Origin: Eubacteriaceae bacterium ES3
GTDB lineage: Bacteria > Bacillota > Clostridia > Eubacteriales > Eubacteriaceae
Assembly: GCA_030586155.1 (NCBI GenBank)
Contig: CP130741.1
Location: 2,970,680 to 3,034,679 of the forward strand
DNA: 64,000 bases
Reading direction: 5' to 3'
A program made the translations under genes and the position numbers. How positions within the stretch are numbered: position 1 is the first letter of the stretch; each line of letters begins with the position of its first letter. The notes under the pieces are model-generated. The model was not told the origin of the DNA. It saw only the letters and a list, made by a program, of their open reading frames with translations, and searched no databases. This document shows, piece after piece, positions 13,520 through 61,030 of this stretch.

Positions 13520-14839
13520 ATGTTACAAAAAATTAAAATGACAAAAGACAGACTGAATGAATCCAATGATCGAATTTCCGTATATGATGATTGGTTCAAA
13601 TGGCAATGGCAGATAAAACATACGATCCGAAGTATTGAAAATGTTGAAAAAATTTTAGGTATTCAGTTTTCAGAATCTCGAAAAAGTGATCTTCAAAAAA
13701 CAATTAGTCAATTCCCCATGGCTATTACGCCATATTATCTCTCTCTGGTGGATCCTGCTGATTATGAAAACGACCCGATCTTCAAGCAGTGTTTTCCTGA
13801 TCCCAGAGAATTGAATCATGCAAGCTGTGACTTATCCGATCCGCTTCATGAGGAAGGGGATAGTCCTGTTTCGGGAATAACCCACCGTTATCCCGACCGA
13901 GTTTTATTTCATGTCAGCAATATCTGCTCCATGTACTGCCGACACTGCACAAGAAAAAGAAAAGTCGGAGATACCGATTCCATTCCAAATAAAGATCAGC
14001 TTAAAAAAGGCATCGAATACATTAAAAATACCCCGGTGATTAGGGATGTACTCTTATCCGGCGGCGATCCTTTTCTTCTGTCTGATTCACAAATTAACTG
14101 GTTACTTGAAGAAATCTCAAAAATTGATCATGTGGAAGTAATTAGAATCGGTACCCGCATCCCGGTCGTTCTGCCTTATAGAATTACTGACGATTTAGTC
14201 AGAGTGCTCAAAAAATATGATAATCTCTGGATTAATACCCACTATAATCATCCTAAAGAGCTGACCAGAGACTCACGTGCCGCCCTTAAAAAACTAGCCC
14301 AGACCGGAATCCCTTTGGGTAATCAATCTGTTCTACTAAGAGATATTAACGACTGTCCGATGATTATGAAAAAACTTGTTCATCAGCTGGTCGCCAATCG
14401 AGTTAGACCTTATTATCTCTATCAGTGCGATTTATCAGAAGGTCTGGAACATTTTAGAACAGATGTCGGTAAAGGAATTGAAATTATGGAGAATCTACGT
14501 GGCCATACCAGTGGTTTTGCCATTCCAACTTATGTGATCGATGCCCCAGGCGGCGGCGGAAAGATTCCCTTAATGCCTAATTATCTTATTTCATATTCAA
14601 CCACTAAAGTGGTCCTTAGAAACTATGAAGGCGTTATTACAACTTACCAGATGCCAGAAGACTACGGTCCGGCGACCTGTGATCGAGATTGCGAGAACTG
14701 TAATCTCCAGCTAAAATTGGAACCCCATGAATCTGAAACTCAGCCGATCGGTATTTCAAAACTTTTATGTCACTATGAAGAATCCATCACCCTAGTACCA
14801 CAAAATCTTGAACGTGATGAAAGAAGGTTGGCCGAATAA
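13520..14839 (+). CDS. ablA: Lysine 2,3-aminomutase (beta-lysine synthesis)
   Basis: The 439-residue radical-SAM, PLP enzyme converts L-lysine to L-beta-lysine. The [4Fe-4S] motif is C136-x3-C140-x2-C143 (CSMYCRHC). A PLP lysine is likely in [15 protein letters not shown]. The zinc-type cysteines of the family are seen in CDRDCENC near the C-terminus. The following gene is the matching acetyltransferase, so the pair makes N-epsilon-acetyl-beta-lysine, a compatible solute known from methanogens and some bacteria, and not lysine fermentation. The preceding leader with a terminator suggests regulation by attenuation. Confidence 0.93.
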
Positions 14840-14840
14840 G

Positions 14841-15671
14841 ATGAGTCAAGATCAGATTACCCAAAAGGAAAATATTGTCTATCAGCATGGTAAGGCTAAT
14901 GATCGAATCTATATCATGGAGGTCAACCCGTTCTCAAAGGAGCTTGACATTGATGGCCTGGAGAAGATTGCCCAGCAGAAAGGCTATACAAAAATTATCG
15001 GCAAAATCCCTCGCAGTCTTTCTAATGCCTTTGAATCACATCAGTTCGAAAGAGAAGCACTGGTTCCAAATTTTTATAAAAACGATGAATACTGTTTTTT
15101 TATGAGCAAATATTTTTCGAAAAGCCGGAAAAATGATCCACAGCAGGAAGAAATTGACGCAATTATTCTGCAGGCTCGAGCTAAAATAATGGATCGCTCT
15201 TCGATCCAAAATGAGTACGCTGTCAAAAAGCTTAATACCAGCCATGTATCTGATATGGTCAGACTTTATAAAAAGGTATTTGATAGCTATCCCTTTCCGA
15301 TTTTTGACCCTGAATATCTCTTGTCAACATTTGATGAAGTCTTTTATTTCGGATTTTTCGATCAGGATAAACTGATTGCATGTGCTTCCTGTGAAACCGA
15401 TTTTAAAAACGGCAATGCTGAAATGACTGACTTTGCTGTTTTACCCGAATACCGAGGTGCTAATCTGGCAGTCAAACTGTTGATTGAAATGGAAGCCTTT
15501 ATGCGAAAAAAAGAAATTTATACACTTTATACTATTGCTCGAGCCACTTCTCCAAGCATGAACTGCAGCTTTGGTAAAATGGGTTATATTTATGGCGGCA
15601 CCCTGTATAACAACACTCAAATCGCCGGTTCAATTGAGTCCATGAATGTCTGGTATAAAAACATTTATTAA
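14841..15671 (+). CDS. ablB: Beta-lysine N-acetyltransferase
   Basis: ATG 14841 follows the ablA stop by one base and has AAGAAGG upstream; a longer TTG start at 14808 would overlap ablA and is less likely. The 276-residue product has a GNAT acetyl-CoA-binding domain in its C-terminal half (TDFAVLPEYRGANLAVKLL). It acetylates beta-lysine to N-epsilon-acetyl-beta-lysine. Tight coupling to ablA supports the assignment. Confidence 0.88.
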   Translation: MSQDQITQKENIVYQHGKANDRIYIMEVNPFSKELDIDGLEKIAQQKGYTKIIGKIPRSLSNAFESHQFEREALVPNFYKNDEYCFFMSKYFSKSRKNDPQQEEIDAIILQARAKIMDRSSIQNEYAVKKLNTSHVSDMVRLYKKVFDSYPFPIFDPEYLLSTFDEVFYFGFFDQDKLIACASCETDFKNGNAEMTDFAVLPEYRGANLAVKLLIEMEAFMRKKEIYTLYTIARATSPSMNCSFGKMGYIYGGTLYNNTQIAGSIESMNVWYKNIY

Positions 15672-18137: not shown

Positions 18138-18249
18138 TTTATATTATCATCCCAATATGTAATTTACGATTAATTTAATTTGAGAACCTTTGAAATAGTC
18201 TTTCTTTGGAATTATTACATTTTATATATAAACGTTTACAGTTTATCTA

Positions 18250-18277
18250 TGGACTTATCGCCACTTTATGCTATACT
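18250..18277 (+). promoter_or_regulatory. Promoter of repeated unit A
   Basis: TGGACT, 16 bases, TATACT. The whole block, including an upstream AAACGTTTACAG, is conserved at 26716-26743. Confidence 0.55.
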
Positions 18278-18814
18278 ATAATTGAATCAAGGATATAGAA
18301 AATTATTTTCAGAGATTTCGATCATAGAAAAAACCGATTCTGGGCCAGTAAAATCAATGGGAAAAATAATATTCATCAAAATGATTTTACTAATCATTGT
18401 CGGATCTGAAATTCCAAAAGAAAATCAGGACGATATGAACAGCTATTTAAAATGAGTGTCAGTATAGTGGACTGGATACAGTCGTCACAATAAAATAACT
18501 GATTGAAATAAATGTTTAAAAAATGATTAAAAGCAAAAGAGATAATCTGGAACAAACACTAGATTGATCTGAAAAATTGGAAACTCAGATATATATTTAA
18601 AGGATGAAACAAAATCAGAAGCATTGGAGAAGCAGGAAACTGAAAGAAAATCGAACCTCTCGAAAAGAAACCTCCAATACTGATGAAGAAAATTAGAAAT
18701 CCATTAAACTTATATCAAGAAAAACAAAAAAAGTAAGATAATCTTTAAACAGAAAAAGGGTTATAACTGGAGATAGTTGGAAGATTTTTGATAATAATAA
18801 AAAGGAGGACGAAC

Positions 18815-18838
18815 ATGACAATAGTATTTGAAAGCTAA
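18815..18838 (+). CDS. Seven-codon ORF ending in the terminator of unit A
   Basis: ATG ACA ATA GTA TTT GAA AGC TAA follows AAAGGAGG at good spacing. Its stop codon lies in the 5' arm of the terminator. Unit B has a seven-codon ORF in the same place with a different sequence (MTIVFES here, MIGVIQN there), so position and ribosome binding site are kept, not the peptide. Confidence 0.35.
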   Translation: MTIVFES

Positions 18839-18884
18839 GACCGGTTCTACAGAAACATTTGTGGAATCGGTTTTAGTGCTTTTT
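18834..18884 (+). terminator. Intrinsic terminator of unit A
   Basis: GCTAAGACCGGTTC pairs with GAATCGGTTTTAG, using wobble pairs, and is followed by TGCTTTTTG. Unit B has the same hairpin. Confidence 0.7.
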
Positions 18885-18934
18885 GTCTGATTTCGCCTTT
18901 TAGAAATTTTAACCAACATATAAATATCCATACA

Positions 18935-24153: not shown

Positions 24154-26283
24154 TTATAACATAGCATCCTCAGATCCACACGAGGATACAAAAAGAATAC
24201 TGCAGGGTGATGCATTAATCGTTTGAGACATATAATCTCTTTCAAAGGGCATGCCTATTATATTAAAATCTGCATCCACCGTCTTTACATGATAAACAAA
24301 AGAACCTGTATATACACAGATTTTAGTATTGACTGGAAGTCTGGTATTATCGATGAAGGCCGCCATTTCCGCATAAACTGAATTCCTGTCATCTTCTGGT
24401 CCGATCACTCGACAAAGATTAATTTCAGCGGCAAAATTACGGCTCAGCTGCAAGGCTGTTAAAACAATCAAGTCATTATTAGGACTTTTATCCCGTAACC
24501 AGATATTAATTTTTTTCTCGATGCCAAAGCCCTGTTTGGGATGTAACCACAGACAAAAATAAGAAAGGTTAAGTACCTCTATAGATGCCATGATACGGTA
24601 AAGTCTTTGGCGTTTTTCAAGCTCATCAGAAATTGTAAAAAACACAATATTTGGCGGCAAATAGGAGGATTGCAGACTTTGAAGAACAGGTCGAAGCGTC
24701 GTATCAAAGTCGGACTCTGAGATTAAAGTCTTCTGAACAAAAATATTTTTATCCGGCAATAAGCTGATCGCCTGATCTATTTCATCAATCTGCTCAGGTT
24801 CAAAGGCAGTTGCTTCGGTCGTCGAAATATAATAAACACGGCCTGCCGGGTAGGTAAGGCTCAAAATAATTCTGCTCACTCGCTTAAAGTTTGCAGGATT
24901 TTCAATTGGCACCGCAATCGCCGGTTTCCAGATCCGTGGATGGTCAGGAATTGCTGCCGACTTTTGTGCCGCCCATTCGGCAATTGCTACAAAAATCCCT
25001 CCTCGAACATCTCCTGAAGGGGATGAAAAATTATGCCGCTTTAGAATAACGTAAAGTGTAACTATAATAATAAATGAAATAATGGTAAAAATAGGATTGA
25101 TCAGAAACATCACCGCAATACAACCAATCGATCCCGTTAACGGAATAATAATTGGTATCTTCATCGTTGGCCGATAGCTAATCACACCGGTAAATTCTTC
25201 AACAAAAACAACCATATTAATCATCACATAGGTGGTCAGAAAAAACATCGTTAAGAGTTCTGCCAGACTGTCCAGATTCCCAAAGATGATTACCAGGGCT
25301 GATAATCCTGACGAAAGCAAAATCGCATTAAAGGGTTCTCCTCTTTTATTAGGCTTTGCCAGAAAAGGACTAAAAGGTACAACTCGATTTTCTGCCAGTG
25401 CTGCCAGGGTACGTGGTGCACTCACAAGAGTGGAAAGAGCTGAGGATAAAACCGCCCCCATCACCCCGGCAACAATCAGAGCCTGTACTTTAGACAATTT
25501 AAATATGATTGACGGATCATTGAGCAGCATAGTCTGGCTCGCCTGATGGGCAAACCAATAGGCTACAAAAAGATAAACCGCCAAACCAGTAATAACTGCT
25601 GCAAGCGTTCCTTTAATGATACTCTTTCGGGGATCCTTCAAATCTCCTGACATCGTCGCACCGGTCAGAATACCTGTAACAGCCGGGAAAAAAATGGCAA
25701 ATGTTGTCCAAAAATCAGCATCCGCAAAAGATCCGTTCATCACAATTCTACCTGAACTTAAATTCGGTCCCAGTATAAAAGAGATCAGTGATAAAAATAC
25801 GGCCGCCAGCACAATGTACTGAATTCGAAAAGCCAGTTTGGCACTCAGCAGAGAAATCCCAGTTAACATCGCCCAGGTAATTACCCCAACCAGTATCTGC
25901 GAATGATCTGGAAAAAAAGACACCCATAATTCACTAAAACCGGTTATATAAAAAGCCGTTGAGATAGTCTGGGAAAAATATAAGGGTATGCCGATTGCCC
26001 CGCCCATTTCATGCCCCAGCGACCTGGTTATAATTGCATAGGCACCACCGGCACCAATTTTTATATTGGTCAGCATTGACGCCATTGACAGAGAAGTCGT
26101 CAGAGTGATGACATGAGCCAGCAGAATAATGATCACAGCGCCTAAAAGACCGGCATTTCCTACAACCCAACCCATTCGCAGGTAGAGAATAACGCCTAGA
26201 ATCGTCAATAATGTGGGAGTATAAACTCCTTCAAAAGTTCTTAAGCCAGCTTTTTCTTCGGTTGTTTCTTTTTTATTAAACAA
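24154..26283 (-). CDS. SLC12-like (cation-chloride cotransporter / APC superfamily) transporter
   Basis: Residues about 12-420 form roughly 12 membrane segments starting with FEGVYTPTLLTILGVILYLRMGWVVGNAG, the SLC12/amino-acid permease signature. A cytoplasmic C-terminal domain of about 280 residues follows, as in Na-K-Cl cotransporters. I chose TTG 26283 since AGAAGGAG lies 8 bases upstream; an upstream TTG at 26355 has no such site. The likely substrate is K+/Cl- or amino acids (unproven). It has its own promoter and a structured leader. Close to the osmolyte genes, so ion homeostasis is plausible. Confidence 0.8.
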   Translation of the reverse strand: MFNKKETTEEKAGLRTFEGVYTPTLLTILGVILYLRMGWVVGNAGLLGAVIIILLAHVITLTTSLSMASMLTNIKIGAGGAYAIITRSLGHEMGGAIGIPLYFSQTISTAFYITGFSELWVSFFPDHSQILVGVITWAMLTGISLLSAKLAFRIQYIVLAAVFLSLISFILGPNLSSGRIVMNGSFADADFWTTFAIFFPAVTGILTGATMSGDLKDPRKSIIKGTLAAVITGLAVYLFVAYWFAHQASQTMLLNDPSIIFKLSKVQALIVAGVMGAVLSSALSTLVSAPRTLAALAENRVVPFSPFLAKPNKRGEPFNAILLSSGLSALVIIFGNLDSLAELLTMFFLTTYVMINMVVFVEEFTGVISYRPTMKIPIIIPLTGSIGCIAVMFLINPIFTIISFIIIVTLYVILKRHNFSSPSGDVRGGIFVAIAEWAAQKSAAIPDHPRIWKPAIAVPIENPANFKRVSRIILSLTYPAGRVYYISTTEATAFEPEQIDEIDQAISLLPDKNIFVQKTLISESDFDTTLRPVLQSLQSSYLPPNIVFFTISDELEKRQRLYRIMASIEVLNLSYFCLWLHPKQGFGIEKKINIWLRDKSPNNDLIVLTALQLSRNFAAEINLCRVIGPEDDRNSVYAEMAAFIDNTRLPVNTKICVYTGSFVYHVKTVDADFNIIGMPFERDYMSQTINASPCSILFVSSCGSEDAML

Positions 26284-26374
26284 AAGACACGCTCCTTCTA
26301 AATCTTTGTTCAAAACTCGCTTTAGTCTTTTGGAATTTGCTTCAAGTCTATGCAAGTTTTTTGTTCAAATTTGT

Positions 26375-26484: not shown

Positions 26485-26715
26485 GAATAAGATAGTAAAA
26501 GCTAATCCTGTAAAAAAATAAGAAGCAAAATAATCTACACGTTCCGGTATTCAGGGCTAAAAATAATATGAATACCCAGGAACAGTCTGAATTATTATTC
26601 CAGGTACAAACTTTTTTCCGTACTGTCGCAGGAACATATACTTCTCGTACAACTTTATATACAACTCTAATTTAGATCGGTTGCAATTTAATTACAAACG
26701 TTTACAGGTTATCTA

Positions 26716-26743
26716 TGGACTATTCTAAACAATATGCTATACT
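26716..26743 (+). promoter_or_regulatory. Promoter of repeated unit B
   Basis: TGGACT, 16 bases, TATACT, with upstream AAACGTTTACAG; same layout as at 18250-18277. Between 26490 and 26700 I see no gene. Confidence 0.55.
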
Positions 26744-27223
26744 ATAATTGAATCAAGGATCAAGTAAATTATTTCCAAAGATTTCGATCATAGAAATCAA
26801 ACCAAATCTTTAGCCAGTAAGATTCAAATTATAGGTTATAAAGATCTTACTAATCATCTCTGAAACCAAAAAATTAAAAGAAAACTTCATTGAAAACAAG
26901 CCGAGTAGCATTCGCATAGTTAAAGATGAAAACAGATGATTAAAAGCAAAAGTAATGAGCTGGAACAAACACCAGATCGATCCGAAAAAGACAGAAAAAT
27001 GAAAAGAACTTTAAACGATCAAAAATAATCGATAAAGCTAAATAAAAAAAAGAATTGCAAATCGGGAGGGACTCGAAAAAAAATTCAGCCAAATCGAAAA
27101 ATATATTCGATCAGTTAAAGAAAAAAGATTAAAAGCTGCTCAATAAAGTAAGATAAACTTGAAGGTAAGGTTTGAAAAAGAAATAATTGCAGGTTTTTGA
27201 TATCAAATAATAGGAGGTCAACC

Positions 27224-27247
27224 ATGATAGGTGTGATCCAAAACTAA
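27224..27247 (+). CDS. Seven-codon ORF ending in the terminator of unit B
   Basis: ATG ATA GGT GTG ATC CAA AAC TAA follows ATAGGAGG. The stop lies in the terminator 5' arm, exactly as in unit A. Confidence 0.35.
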   Translation: MIGVIQN

Positions 27248-27290
27248 AACCGGTTCTGCAAAATATGTGGAATCGGTTTTAGTACTTTTT
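27243..27290 (+). terminator. Intrinsic terminator of unit B
   Basis: ACTAAAACCGGTTC pairs with GAATCGGTTTTAGT (one G-T) followed by ACTTTTTG. Also able to stop the convergent methyltransferase gene. Confidence 0.75.
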
Positions 27291-27291
27291 G

Positions 27292-27950: not shown

Positions 27951-28583
27951 CTAAATATCATATATCTGATGCAGGTAACCATCTAACCGCAAATCAGCTG
28001 CATTAATACCTACATAATAAAGCGTATCTTTAGCCCTGATAATTTCTTCGGCTGGCGGTGCAATCATCATTTTTCCGGCTCTGCTGATTCCCACCAGAGT
28101 TACCCCGATTTCCTTGTTAAGGTTCAGATCAGCAATGCTTTTTTCCGGCAGTTCAGTTTCGTAGTCAAGAAAATACTCATAGATCATAATCTGCTCACTG
28201 TTTTTAAAACGGCTGGTATAATCAATAATATTATTCATCGCGTCATTCATTCTCTGCTCAATTTCATCCCGTTGCCTCATTAAAAGCATGATCTCCTTTT
28301 TGAAATCATTGACGCTGAATTTGACTTTATAGCGTTCAATAAATTCTTCAGCATAAGCCTTTGAGGCGATATAAGATCCGCTACCGTGGGCAACCTTGAT
28401 AATTCCCACTTCTTCAAGAAGCCATAGGGCCTTGCGGATCGTCTCCGGTGATACATTGTATTCACTGGCTAAGGTCGTTCGACCACTGATTTTTTGCCCA
28501 ACTTTCAAGTTATCCCGAGCAATTCTGCCTGCCACATCCACTGCTACCTGCATATAGATCGGTGTCTCTTTTCTTGCTGCCAC
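27951..28583 (-). CDS. busR: BusR-type GntR-TrkA_C repressor of the betaine transporter (c-di-AMP sensing)
   Basis: The 210-residue protein has an N-terminal GntR winged helix (about 5-75: LASEYNVSPETIRKALWLLEEVGII), a coiled linker (about 85-120) and a C-terminal RCK_C/TrkA_C domain (about 130-205, VTLVGISRAGKMMIAPPAEEII). This is the architecture of BusR, which in lactic acid bacteria represses the busA betaine importer and binds c-di-AMP. It starts at GTG behind GGAGG and lies 47 bases after the transporter ATPase. A matching operator is found at 31969-32004. The c-di-AMP role is by family, not shown here. Confidence 0.85.
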   Translation of the reverse strand: MAARKETPIYMQVAVDVAGRIARDNLKVGQKISGRTTLASEYNVSPETIRKALWLLEEVGIIKVAHGSGSYIASKAYAEEFIERYKVKFSVNDFKKEIMLLMRQRDEIEQRMNDAMNNIIDYTSRFKNSEQIMIYEYFLDYETELPEKSIADLNLNKEIGVTLVGISRAGKMMIAPPAEEIIRAKDTLYYVGINAADLRLDGYLHQIYDI

Positions 28584-28630
28584 CCGACCACCTCCAAAAT
28601 TCTATTGCTTACGCTTCCTCCTGTAAAATT

Positions 28631-29815
28631 CTAATGCGTTAAAGCTGCCACGACTTCTTCAGTACTCACGACACCCCTAAGCCGTTTCTTTTTATCAATC
28701 ACGGCAATATCATAGGCACTTTCGTCAAGTTTACTGAAGGCTTCGTAAACAAAGGCATTACTCTCAATTGTTTCAAGTTCTTCAATAATAAACTGCTGAA
28801 TTGTCTTGTCTCCCTGTTCTGCCAGGGTTTGGGTTTCAACATATCCCAGCAGAACCTTAGTCTGATCGTCAACGACATAGCAAAAATCTCGATTATTTTC
28901 CTCGAGCCTTTTTAAAACATCTTGAGCTTTTTCTGCTGGCTTAGCCAATACAATCGGTTTGCGCATAATGGATTTTACTCTTAATATACGGGACTTGTCA
29001 ACATCTTCTGTGAAAGATCTGACGTAATCATTTGCAGGATTTTCAAAGAAGTCTTTTGGCTTACCAAGTTGCACTAAAGCACCGTCTTTAAGCAGGGCAA
29101 CCCGGTCACCGAGACGAAAAGCTTCATTCATATCGTGGGTAATAAAGATAATCGTTTTATTGATATAGGCTTCCATACTTAGAAGTTCGGTCTGCATTTC
29201 TCTTCGTATTAATGGATCCAGCGCACTAAAAGGCTCATCCATCAATAAGATTTCCGGTTCGTTGGTCAGGGCTCTAGCCAAACCAACACGCTGTTTCATT
29301 CCGCCTGAGAGATGTTTGGGGAAATATGTTTCCCAGCCTTCAAGACCGACCAGTTTAATGGCTTCTTCAGCCTTTTCTTTGCGTTCTTCCGGTGACACAT
29401 TCTGAACTTCCAGTCCGTATTCCACATTTCTCAAGACATTTCGGTGACTGAATAAACCAAAATGCTGAAAAACCATGGCGACTTTTTTACGTCTCAGATG
29501 CTGTAACTGATTTTTGTCATACTCACAGATATTTTCACCATCAATCAACACCTGGCCCCGGGTCGGAATGTTTAACATATTCAAGCAGCGAATCAGTGAA
29601 GATTTACCGCTTCCTGAAAGTCCTACGATGACAAACATCTCACCTTCTTCAATATCCAGGCTGATATTATTAACCCCAACTGCCAGTCCTGTCTCTTCTC
29701 TGACCTCCTGGATAGATTTTCCTTCATCCAGCATTTGAAGAGCGCGTTCCGGCTTTTTGCCAAACACCAGGGTCAGATCTTTGATACTAACTTTATAGTC
29801 TTCCATCCTATTCAC
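28631..29815 (-). CDS. opuAA: Glycine betaine ABC transporter ATPase with CBS domains
   Basis: The 394-residue OpuAA/ProV ATPase has Walker A (GLSGSGKSS), signature LSGGMKQRVGLARAL, Walker B (ILLMDEPFSALD) and a C-terminal tandem CBS region (about 275-394), which in OpuA senses ionic strength. Its start overlaps the permease stop by 8 bases, indicating coupling. Confidence 0.93.
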   Translation of the reverse strand: MNRMEDYKVSIKDLTLVFGKKPERALQMLDEGKSIQEVREETGLAVGVNNISLDIEEGEMFVIVGLSGSGKSSLIRCLNMLNIPTRGQVLIDGENICEYDKNQLQHLRRKKVAMVFQHFGLFSHRNVLRNVEYGLEVQNVSPEERKEKAEEAIKLVGLEGWETYFPKHLSGGMKQRVGLARALTNEPEILLMDEPFSALDPLIRREMQTELLSMEAYINKTIIFITHDMNEAFRLGDRVALLKDGALVQLGKPKDFFENPANDYVRSFTEDVDKSRILRVKSIMRKPIVLAKPAEKAQDVLKRLEENNRDFCYVVDDQTKVLLGYVETQTLAEQGDKTIQQFIIEELETIESNAFVYEAFSKLDESAYDIAVIDKKKRLRGVVSTEEVVAALTH

Positions 29816-30659
29816 TCTCCTTCATGTTATTTGCAGTTCCCTGCAGGACGCGGTCAAGTATAATGGCTAAAAAAACAATTCCTAACCCGGCCTGGAATCC
29901 ATCACCAATTTCCAGTCGTCTTATGGCAATCAGGACCTGTTCACCGATTCCTTTAGCCCCGATCATTGATGAAATAACAACCATCGACATGGCCATCATA
30001 GTTGTCTGATTGATTCCGGTCATGATGGTAGCCATAGCTTGGGGAAATTCAATCTTGAAAAGCATTTGTTTTGCTGTTGAACCAAAGGATTTCCCTGCTT
30101 CGATGACCTCCTTGTTCACATTGGAAATTCCCAAATAGGTCAATCTAATCAGTGGCGGCAAGGCATAAGTCGTCGTCGCAATAACCGCCGGGACAATACC
30201 AAAGCCAAAAAACATAATCGCCGGTAAAAGATAAACAAAGGAAGGCATGGTCTGCATCCCATCTAGAATTGGCATAATGATCTTTCTGGCCATTTCTTTT
30301 TTTGAAACCAGAATCCCCAGCGGAATACCAAACAGTATTGAAGCTAGCACTGAAATAATAACAATAGCCAGGGTATAAATCATCATCTCCCATAAACCAA
30401 AAAGACCGATTAATAACAGCATAAAAGCCAAACCTAGTCCAGTTCTCAAATTATATAGCTTCCAACCGGCAGCAAAAAGCGCAATAATTAAAAGCCACCA
30501 GGGAATAATCGAAATAACTCCTTGAACACTATAAAAAATACTTAAAATAACACTGCTGATGGCATCAAAAAGCCAATCAAGATTGATCATCAGCCAAGCG
30601 ACTGCGCGATCAATCGGCTCGGCAATTTCAAACCTCAGTGTCTCTGGAAATCCACCCAT
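29808..30659 (-). CDS. opuAB: Glycine betaine ABC transporter permease
   Basis: The 283-residue ProW/OpuAB-type permease has about seven membrane segments. The EAA loop is VIEAGKSFGSTAKQMLFKIEFPQAMATIM. The binding protein is not fused to it, unlike BusAB. Ribosome binding site GAGGAGG. Confidence 0.92.
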   Translation of the reverse strand: MGGFPETLRFEIAEPIDRAVAWLMINLDWLFDAISSVILSIFYSVQGVISIIPWWLLIIALFAAGWKLYNLRTGLGLAFMLLLIGLFGLWEMMIYTLAIVIISVLASILFGIPLGILVSKKEMARKIIMPILDGMQTMPSFVYLLPAIMFFGFGIVPAVIATTTYALPPLIRLTYLGISNVNKEVIEAGKSFGSTAKQMLFKIEFPQAMATIMTGINQTTMMAMSMVVISSMIGAKGIGEQVLIAIRRLEIGDGFQAGLGIVFLAIILDRVLQGTANNMKESE

Positions 30660-30863
30660 ACCTTTTTCCTCCTCTAATTGAATATAGAGATGGCTCTCTA
30701 TTTTCCTATTCTGACAGAATACAAACCAGCACCTGAAAGTGCTGCAGCTAACACGTTTCTGTCTTTTTTACTTTTTAGCCAGAAGCAGCTCCCTATCCTC
30801 TTTGCAAATAGCAAATCGCCGCTTCCTCAAACAATTGCATCTTAACCTTCTTTTTAAGAATAC

Positions 30864-30900
30864 ATTAGGCCTGAATTGTCATATCCAATTCAGGCCTAAT
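30864..30900. terminator. Perfect 15-bp hairpin between opuAC and opuAB
   Basis: ATTAGGCCTGAATTG (30864-30878) and its exact complement (30886-30900) with a 7-base loop. No good T-run follows, so it may be a processing or 3'-end-stabilising hairpin raising binding-protein yield. The rest of 30660-30959 holds a small hairpin (CAGCAC/GTGCTG near 30730) and no gene. Confidence 0.6.
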
Positions 30901-30959
30901 GCTTAGATACCTTTTCATCAGTCAACCAACAAAAAGATTATTAACAACTCAATATTTTC

Positions 30960-31928
30960 TTACGACTCTACATATGCCATGATTTTCTCAAAAGCGTCTG
31001 CCGTAACCATCCCTTCAATTAGGTCAGGATTTTGACTAATAAACCATTTTGCCGCTTCGGCTGCTTCAACTTCATTTTCCTGCATATAAGCCAATCCTTC
31101 ACTGGTTATAGCTGAAGATGTTGAATAGTTGCTTAAGAACTCAGTGATTTCTGGATAACGCTCTTCAAAATCGCTGGTCACAACAACGGTAACCGTAACT
31201 GCTGCAAATCCACCTTCACCTACTTCATAGCCTTCAGGACTATACTCAGTGTCACCAAGCAGAGTCATATCATAAAGTCCCATAATCCAGGTTGGTTCCC
31301 AATAATAACCGACCCATGGTTCACCTCTTTCATAGGCCCCAGATAAAGTCGCTGTTAAAGCTGCTGTGGAATCGATTGAACGGAAGGTATAGAACTCATC
31401 CAATCCATAGGCTTCCATTTTTCTCTGCATGAATGCTGTTACTTCCCAGCCTTCAGGTCCACCATAGATGATACCTAAATCTCCACCTTCAGGATCTGGA
31501 AACAGCTCTGGATATTTTTTTAAATCCTCAACTGTTTTTAAATCTGGTGCAATTGCATCCGGCCCTTCAACCATATAGGTTGGAACATAGAGCCCCTGGT
31601 AATCATCATCGAAATTAATACCTAATTCTACATAATTACCATCTGCAAGGTCTTGCTCATATGAAGGTATGTTATCACTCCACATTTCGACTACGACATC
31701 CATATCACCAGTTGTTAAGCCAGAGACTTCGACCGCTGTATCAGCGACAACGATTTCTGTTCCTACGCCATAACCTTCTTCTACAATAATCTTTACAATC
31801 TGATCATGGAATGCATTACTATCCCAATCACCTTCTCCAATGACAATCTTACTCTCCTCTTGTGGCGCACAAGCGGCCATCGCAAACACCATGACAAACG
31901 TCATGAGCAGTACCGTTAATCTTTTCAT
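30960..31928 (-). CDS. opuAC: Glycine betaine/quaternary amine substrate-binding lipoprotein
   Basis: The 322-residue OpuAC-family protein has a signal peptide with lipobox (FAMAACAPQ, Cys about 20). Aromatic residues likely to bind the quaternary ammonium group are in VVEMWSDNIP and GYYWEPTWIMG. Ribosome binding site GGAGGTG. It is the first gene of the operon, driven from a promoter overlapped by the BusR operator. The exact substrate (betaine, choline or proline betaine) is unproven. Confidence 0.9.
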   Translation of the reverse strand: MKRLTVLLMTFVMVFAMAACAPQEESKIVIGEGDWDSNAFHDQIVKIIVEEGYGVGTEIVVADTAVEVSGLTTGDMDVVVEMWSDNIPSYEQDLADGNYVELGINFDDDYQGLYVPTYMVEGPDAIAPDLKTVEDLKKYPELFPDPEGGDLGIIYGGPEGWEVTAFMQRKMEAYGLDEFYTFRSIDSTAALTATLSGAYERGEPWVGYYWEPTWIMGLYDMTLLGDTEYSPEGYEVGEGGFAAVTVTVVVTSDFEERYPEITEFLSNYSTSSAITSEGLAYMQENEVEAAEAAKWFISQNPDLIEGMVTADAFEKIMAYVES

Positions 31929-58605: not shown

Positions 58606-58718
58606 GTCTAATAAGCGGATTAACTGATCCCTAGTTTAATAAAACGTCGCAGGATCAATACGGTCAATGTTACTAACTTCCCTTTTCCCTGGAAGGATAT
58701 CTTAGTACTTCTGTTTAG

Positions 58719-58850
58719 TAGGTTTCCTGACTTATAGCTTATATTTCTCTCGCCTTCCCAGTTTATATCCCAGTGACATTTTAAAGAGAACTTAACTATT
58801 TACAGTGACCGGATCGCTCTGGACTTTCACCAGATTCCCTCGATGATTAA
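58719..58850 (-). ncRNA. Cobalamin riboswitch upstream of cbiM
   Basis: On the minus strand the conserved blocks appear in order: GAGGGAA, GGTGAAAGTCC, GGTCACTGT, GTCACTGG, TGGGAAGGC and GTCAGGAAACCTAC. With the terminator at 58573-58605 it should switch off the cobalt importer and the tetrapyrrole/cobalamin genes when cobalamin is plentiful. Confidence 0.92.
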
Positions 58851-58879
58851 ATCAGCCTAAACGAATTTATACATTATTT

Positions 58880-60766: not shown

Positions 60767-60837
60767 ATAAGAATCATACATAAGAGTTACTCTGATGTTC
60801 TTAACTTACTCTAAATCGGAGGTTTGTAAGAAAGTCA

Positions 60838-60972
60838 CTACAACAGGTCTTCTGGCTCTGCACTAAAACTTCCCGTTAGCCTTCCCATTAATATTAACAG
60901 TGGCATCAAAACGGTCATCATGCATTACAGCTGCGATTACAGCAAAGGATTTACACCTTTTTCCCTTGAGTA
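60838..60972 (-). ncRNA. Second cobalamin riboswitch, without an adjacent target gene
   Basis: Minus strand shows AAGGGAAAAAGGTGTAAATCC, GCTGTAATCGCAGCTGT, ATGCCACTGTT, ATGGGAAGGC and GAGCCAGAAGACCTG in order, the hallmark cobalamin aptamer blocks. It has its own promoter and a terminator, but the next gene (amidotransferase) is behind a second terminator. Confidence 0.88.
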
Positions 60973-61001
60973 TAGGACAAGTTCACTATTTAATTGATTA
61001 T

Positions 61002-61030
61002 ATTCTACCTTATAACCAGTCTAATGTCAA
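61002..61030 (-). promoter_or_regulatory. Sigma-A promoter of the second cobalamin riboswitch
   Basis: TTGACA (61025-61030), 17 bases, TAGAAT (61002-61007) on the minus strand, directly after the cbiT stop. So the riboswitch is its own transcription unit. Confidence 0.65.

Follow-up and report, generated by a model that had tools for sequence, protein, structure and literature searches.

The question raised by this locus is what is produced by two similar transcription units that hold no normal ORF. The window, i.e. the whole stretch of 64,000 nucleotides that was analysed, corresponds to positions 2,970,680-3,034,679 of the 3.39-Mb single-contig genome of Eubacteriaceae bacterium ES3, and it contains copy A (about 18227-18885) and copy B (about 26693-27291). 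An initial annotation had described a shared promoter, 5' end, mid-block and terminator in these units, and the alignment of both copies over their whole length bore this out. The promoter block and the 5' end were near-identical (82% over 143 nt by blast), the mid-block and the 3' end agreed at 66% over about 356 nt, and the terminator was also common to both. The lack of a normal ORF in either unit was confirmed too, the longest sense-strand stop-to-stop frames being 57 codons in A and 34 in B. That annotation had favoured a conserved long structured RNA family, a proposal which is supported by copies across genera, strong folding, covariation and the lack of a coding homologue of the body. 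As an interpretation it was incomplete, since the RNA is probably not purely non-coding and ends in a conserved seven-codon ORF. The two window units belong to a family of large folded RNAs, to all appearances undescribed, that occurs in Acetobacterium and related genera. Besides further copies, our additions to the first reading are the seven-codon ORFs, the promoter box (TATAAACGTTTACA/TACAAACGTTTACA) and a stem that closes the 5' end on the 3' end, which are placed in the two copies as follows.

18227..18240, + strand: copy A promoter box TATAAACGTTTACA, TTACA-type repeats 21 nt apart, putative response-regulator site (promoter comparison)
18250..18277, + strand: copy A core promoter, -35-like TGGACT and extended -10 TGCTATACT (sequence)
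18284..18885, + strand: copy A structured RNA transcript, start predicted from the -10 (alignment, ORF scan, fold z -5.73)
18286..18294, + strand: copy A P1 5' strand ATCAAGGAT, pairing with 18784-18792 in the single-sequence fold
18347..18391, + strand: copy A hairpin of the initial annotation, AGTAAAAT at 18347-18354 and ATTTTACT at 18384-18391 (fold)
18730..18743, + strand: copy A conserved AAAGTAAGATAATC element (alignments)
18783..18792, + strand: copy A P1 3' strand GATTTTTGAT (fold)
18804..18808, + strand: copy A Shine-Dalgarno GGAGG, 6 nt 5' of the ATG (by eye)
18815..18838, + strand: copy A seven-codon micro-ORF MTIVFES, stop TAA (ORF length conservation)
18834..18885, + strand: copy A intrinsic terminator, stop codon within the stem (sequence, fold)
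26693..26706, + strand: copy B promoter box TACAAACGTTTACA (promoter comparison)
26716..26743, + strand: copy B core promoter, TGGACT and extended -10 TGCTATACT (sequence)
26750..27291, + strand: copy B structured RNA transcript, start predicted (alignment, ORF scan, fold z -4.60)
26752..26761, + strand: copy B P1 5' strand ATCAAGGATC (fold)
26816..26851, + strand: copy B hairpin, AGTAAGAT at 26816-26823 and ATCTTACT at 26844-26851 (fold)
27145..27158, + strand: copy B conserved AAAGTAAGATAAAC element (alignment)
27192..27201, + strand: copy B P1 3' strand GGTTTTTGAT (fold)
27213..27217, + strand: copy B Shine-Dalgarno GGAGG, 6 nt 5' of the ATG (by eye)
27224..27247, + strand: copy B seven-codon micro-ORF MIGVIQN, stop TAA (ORF length conservation)
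27243..27291, + strand: copy B intrinsic terminator, stop codon within the stem (sequence, fold)

The nucleotide search of both copies in related genomes, which the initial annotation had proposed, returned many relatives and revealed a multi-copy family. By blast, relatives of copy A were detected in 18 of the 19 genomes of the genus and those of copy B in 16, and neither copy had a blast match in a 2.2-Mb assembly (G007). When profile matches of the two ends were paired, 58 complete units were obtained, with an unpaired 5' match (L130) and a locus at a contig end (L114) excluded, and 59 together with copy E, which was found via its promoter. The units span about 0.3-0.9 kb with conserved promoter, 5' end and 3' end, and, on sequence alone, they are stand-alone transcription units without an ordinary ORF. 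In the ES3 genome, 7 copies were detected by R1, a covariance model built on the 3' domain, which matched 27 of the 40 genomes of the bacterial family, in 5 of 9 genera. A broader model (R2) had matches in 33 of the 67 genomes of the order and in 11 of 26 genera. The six genera added by R2 score weakly, three being in the same family (G019, G031, G037) and three in two other families (G044, G045, G059). The G045 match was found to be false on reading one locus, and G044 and G059 look like members as judged only from the 3' module and the gene-less body at one locus each. From 130 R2 matches, 115 were accepted as units and 112 were read (85 in Acetobacterium and 27 in other genera, without two in G023 and one in G009). 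The 15 dropped matches comprised nine body-less 3' modules (L245, L246, L277, L279, L282, L283, L284, L285, L287), four false ones (L274, L280, L281, L286) and two reverse-strand terminator echoes. In a class-level search, 8 of 391 genomes matched; the sole match outside the order (G086) was the end of a protein gene and hence false, and the other 7 were in the same order. At the sensitivity of this search, the RNA family looks confined to this order. The single match in a viral contig (L198) lay inside an apparent coding gene and was rejected.

Both window copies folded strongly, with an energy of -136.8 kcal/mol for copy A (z -5.73 against 20 shuffles) and -107.0 kcal/mol for copy B (z -4.60 against 100 shuffles). 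Their single-sequence folds both contained P1, a long-range stem that joins the 5' and 3' ends (ATCAAGGAT paired with ATTTTTGAT in copy A), and the 5' stem that the initial annotation had noticed. Each of the ten P1 pairs forms in 49 to 59 of the 59 units. The 5' stem of the initial annotation is present in both copies and has an analogue at the same place in a sister genome (L133; AGTAAATT/GGATTTGCT), and it was seen in these three sequences only. The more widely shared helices are instead P1, a 5' hairpin, whose loop is UNCG in 14 of the 28 aligned units, and a second long-range stem, P3. The check for covariation in a larger alignment was positive for the long-range helices (28 units) and the terminator (29 units), and so the family has a conserved secondary structure with covariation. 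The core helices (P1 with its extension, the 5' hairpin and P3) were 92.8% paired in the 28-unit alignment compared with 38-56% for slid partners, a comparison biased towards the core, since this very alignment had supplied the structure and four P3b pairs had been placed by hand. In these 28 units the core covariation score was 0.201 vs 0.156 after shuffling, a value reached by 0 of 500 shuffles, and 39 core cells were changed on both sides vs 17.5 (0/500). The number of core pairs with a double change (8 vs 6.0, reached by 65/500 shuffles) and of further pair types (31 vs 30.6, reached by 259/500) was not unusual in the same units, in which P3b was 71.8% paired with modest covariation and P2 was without any double change. 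These pair counts use 28 of the 59 units, excluding truncated units, whose 5' end was misplaced in a 41-unit alignment, and other short ones. Across genera, all 17 terminator pairs were changed on both sides, with a score of 0.612 vs 0.285 that 0 of 500 shuffles reached (29 units). Folds of seven of eight other-genus units had closing pairs that link the 3' region to the first 30 nt, the eighth being without a 5' end that we could find; in the outgroup folds of L230:7805 and L239, some closing pairs reach the terminator tail and not P1.

The body between the conserved ends is variable and A-rich. A body hairpin around GCATATAGAGAC or close variants is common to the other-genus units L230, L236, L238 (where it occurs twice), L240, L270 and L271, and within one mismatch it was found in 0 of the 59 Acetobacterium units.

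In every unit read, the 3' end followed the same order: P1 is succeeded by a Shine-Dalgarno (SD), an ATG and a handful of codons, and the stop codon adjoins the terminator stem or lies within it. The ORF has seven codons in 108 of the 112 units, eight in three (two of them being ES3 copies C and E, via an extra in-frame codon) and ten in one, and it ends in TAG (42), TGA (39) or TAA (31). Start codons were chosen so as to bring the ORF length as near as possible to seven, and the same rule was applied to the controls. Exactly seven codons were obtained in 82 of 86 windows, compared with a mean of 3.0 and a maximum of 8 in shuffles, counts which overstate independence as the units are related, and with 7 of 169 body windows. 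When the columns of 38 distinct ORFs were shuffled, all of them stayed open in 0 of 2000 shuffles, with a mean of 27.8 open. The search profiles included the ORF region; they do not force a seven-codon ORF, since seven body-less modules lack one. Ten such SD-terminator modules were read in Acetobacterium, namely the nine listed above and L247, which was matched by R1 only, and all except L282 directly follow a protein frame of 197-439 codons. Their ORF has seven codons in three modules, nine in one and ten in one, and is missing from five. Because these modules have mostly lost the seven-codon ORF while the terminator persists, the terminator alone does not keep the ORF.

Further features of this region bear on ribosome entry. 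Anti-SD pairing 5' of the ATG had a mean of -12.1 kcal/mol and was matched by no body window in 47 of the 59 units, the SD region was more open than the body in 53 of the 59, and the stop codon was paired in the terminator arm in 59/59 folds. The distance between SD and ATG was 9-14 nt in 52 of the 57 units measured, which is longer than ideal, and 6 nt in three (A, B and L133, taken by eye). From the start codon to the base of the hairpin there are 19 nt in both window copies, and about 19 nt is the room that a ribosome needs 3' of a start codon. The consensus in Acetobacterium is M-T-T-E-I-x-x, with Glu at codon 4 in 100 of the 112 ORFs and absent from copies A and B. The peptides differ within one genome (MTIVFES, MIGVIQN, MTTEEILD, MTTEIQN and others). 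Frame +1 had a pN/pS of 1.18 and frame +2 one of 0.50, and the frame of the ORF lay in between at 0.72, without clear protein-level constraint. The GGAGGAGTCC..ATGAC surroundings are highly conserved within the genus, and third-position changes were seen at codons 2-4; other genera have many letters altered, yet the ATG, seven codons and the stop are kept. Overall, start, length and stop are kept and the peptide sequence drifts. This combination of kept length and position with a drifting sequence, together with the 19-nt distance, favours docking over peptide and suggests that the exact peptide sequence counts for less than the docking of a ribosome against the terminator hairpin. Docking of ribosomes at the tail of an RNA that does not code elsewhere is thus probable.

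In both window copies, the promoter has a AAACGTTTACA box and a TGGACT/TGCTATACT core, and the unit ends in an intrinsic terminator. The TACAAACGTTTACA box lies just 5' of the -35 and is near-invariant in the 56 of 59 units which fit the pattern used, the three promoters with variant boxes being excluded from the column counts. Exact matches to ACAAACGTTTACA occurred four times in the genome, all in the promoters of copies B, C, D and E; copy A has one mismatch, and a further one-mismatch site is a second box before copy E. The remaining seven ACAAACGTTTACA-like sites were no excess over a reversed-pattern control (ten). The box holds three TTACA-like repeats about 11 and 10 nt apart, and the 10-11 nt spacing recurs in another genus. 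Repeats of this kind fit PhoP/WalR/OmpR-type regulators as well as LytTR, and those found here fit a putative winged-helix response regulator. LytTR sites were considered because of the 21-nt TTACA spacing; there are two LytTR genes in the genome, far from the units, and no AgrB was found in the ES3 genome, so that a link to agr, with an RNAIII-type effector, was rejected, and LytTR control is at most a candidate. At L158:9520-12193, copy E is directly 3' of a response regulator-histidine kinase pair, and an other-genus unit (L230:7805-7949) also follows a kinase gene, an adjacency that may be chance because the regulators of the two loci are only 40% identical. Near copies C and E there is a PstS-like (phosphate-binding-protein-like) gene (L158:1480-1700) whose promoter has TTAACA repeats 11 nt apart; these resemble the boxes of the RNA promoters in form, a likeness that is suggestive only.

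The neighbouring genes differ from group to group. The nearest downstream gene was on the same strand in 34 cases and on the opposite strand in 22, the nearest upstream gene in 36 and 21, respectively, and both window copies face convergent genes. Some groups of units hold conserved places, with nine units beside one gene cluster that reads like a hydrolase and eight beside another; therefore, the copies are inherited and not recent debris.

We propose that the unit is a regulated dual-function RNA, in which a folded, trans-acting body would be combined with a micro-ORF that brings a ribosome to the tail, and we give this reading a probability of roughly 0.6. The structure and the micro-ORF are well supported, and transcription, translation and function are what we infer. 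In the proposed mechanism, each unit is a gene of its own whose product is a large structured RNA (about 0.3-0.9 kb), and a putative response regulator would switch on several copies together. The body may then act in trans by binding to target proteins, target RNAs or the ribosome, a mode of action suggested because neighbouring genes differ between groups and orientations are mixed. At the 3' end, a ribosome would be loaded and would translate the heptapeptide, and its presence at the tail may serve for stability or as an effector, as with translated minigenes. A more specific version, which we put forward as a tentative possibility, is a new class of ribosome-docking large RNA, built as a joined-end scaffold and made from several co-regulated loci. 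Its seven-codon frame would park or recycle a ribosome at its own terminator hairpin and, under a stress signal, the RNA might sequester ribosomes or start tRNA, or else bring ribosomes to the targets of the body.

Several other readings share part of this evidence. If the heptapeptide were the product, e.g. a leaderless signal, the unit would be a micropeptide mRNA with the body as an extended regulatory 5' UTR. The nearly constant length of the short ORF in 112/112 units and the third-position changes at codons 2-4 would suit such an mRNA, but the peptides diverge between copies of one genome, the pN/pS values lack clear protein-level constraint, and the body exceeds in length and structure what a UTR would need; we regard this reading as rather unlikely. 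It may also be asked whether the ORF is translated at all, or whether SD, ATG and the next bases form a conserved RNA- or protein-binding sequence beside the terminator. The conservation of the GGAGGAGTCC..ATGAC region in the genus and the lower pN/pS in frame +2 than in frame 0 agree with this, whereas the retention of ATG, seven codons and stop in genera that alter many letters, the interchange of three stop codons and the extra in-frame codon of two copies argue against it, and it is left with a small chance. Leader peptides of about seven codons are classical, and a ribosome on the micro-ORF could in principle open the terminator, whose arm pairs the stop codon in 59/59 folds, and let the polymerase enter the next gene. 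Such a cis-acting leader or attenuator is doubtful, with a slight chance at best, as we did not find a co-directional regulated gene directly downstream as the rule: the strands of the downstream genes are mixed (34 vs 22), both window copies face convergent genes, and the downstream genes vary between groups.

The remaining two readings regard the units as debris, and both fare much worse than the proposed dual-function RNA. Several dispersed copies per genome are what a MITE-like remnant of a mobile element would leave, but groups of nine and of eight units keep one location across many species, the two blocks of A and B agree at no more than 82% and 66% identity, and the units have a dedicated promoter and terminator, so this origin is very improbable. 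For a decayed duplicated protein gene, the initial annotation had pointed to short peptide similarity between A and B (DFDHR, ASKI, TNH). It is better read as DNA similarity of the structured 5' end, because the longest frames are short (57 codons in A and 34 in B) and differently placed among the units. The longest sense-strand frame among 58 units is 84 codons, at differing places, no coding relative of the RNA body was found, covariation is at the RNA level, and promoter and terminator are kept in other genera; we rejected this reading, which retains hardly any credibility.

With regard to known systems, Rfam 15 gave two cobalamin riboswitches only at the gathering threshold in the whole window (58700-58876 and 60825-61017, -). 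In 14 loci searched at E<=1, there were five rows, all far below gathering scores; the sole one over a unit was a nematode snoRNA (E 0.27, L101), and the others, a ureB sRNA row (L126) and three microRNA rows (L230), lay outside units. The earlier statement that the units do not match OLE, ROOL or GOLLD thus held, as neither the window nor the 14 loci gave a credible Rfam match to the units. tmRNA resembles the present units in being a structured RNA whose ends are paired and which has a short reading frame, but the units have their own SD and start codon, and neither tRNA nor tmRNA (ARAGORN) nor a tRNA-like acceptor was found in the window. RNAIII of Staphylococcus aureus is a structured regulatory RNA of about 0.5 kb which also carries an ORF. 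With it and other dual-function RNAs, including VcdRP, our units share the combination of structured RNA and ORF, translation here being predicted from sequence; unlike in RNAIII, the ORF has 7 codons, near-invariant in length, and overlaps the terminator, and the genome is without AgrB. Minigenes such as lambda bar (cited in PMC8012679) and axe-txe mg2 are alike in having an SD and a few codons; the roles proposed for minigenes are protection of mRNA against nucleases or a burden on translation (PMC8708949). The axe-txe mg2 is a two-codon minigene in a leader, whereas the ORF here stands at the 3' end of a large structured RNA. OLE, ROOL, GOLLD and other large RNAs are comparable in their hundreds of nucleotides, conserved fold and mostly unexplained function. 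ROOL and GOLLD are described as phage-linked and often near tRNA islands, and ribosome binding by GOLLD has been reported from pull-downs (PMC12286853); neither Shine-Dalgarno nor peptide occurs as a word in the text of that paper. Unlike ROOL and GOLLD, the present units are chromosomal, multi-copy and have a micro-ORF at the end. Our literature searches found no description of the RNA family, and the supplementary ncRNA lists of acetogen papers, outside their scope, may include these RNAs. A large structured RNA is of a known kind, and the terminator-locked seven-codon ORF is a feature that we have not seen described within the literature searched.

Large structured bacterial RNAs are few and mostly unexplained. 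The present family adds a chromosomal, multi-copy one in acetogens (Acetobacterium) that are of interest for gas fermentation, and its near-fixed seven-codon frame fused to a terminator points at the ribosome. Seven-codon ORFs are far under annotation limits, and here they were recognisable through length conservation. The claim of translation is testable from deposited acetogen reads. Intergenic transcript starts, and in some cases ncRNAs partly of unexplained function, are described in acetogen papers; published data sets give transcript starts for A. woodii (PMC8407422, together with ribosome profiling), A. bakii (PMC6239172) and E. limosum (PMC5651825).

Two further observations concern the surroundings of the units. 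Around copies A and B (13520-15671, 24154-26355 and 27951-31928), the window holds lysine 2,3-aminomutase with acetyltransferase and cation-chloride cotransporter genes and, by eye, also a glycine-betaine-type ABC transporter with a GntR-like regulator, a set that has the look of an osmoadaptation island. Lysine 2,3-aminomutase/acetyltransferase, cation-chloride cotransporters and betaine transporters are linked to osmoadaptation, and no genes of this type were seen beside the other copies read. Several genera have one unit right after the same gene, namely in L094, L104 and L139 (genes related by blast) and, by eye, in L230 (1-1270), L236, L238 and L239. This gene reads like DUF2344/TIGR03936, and the site after it is perhaps the ancestral location.
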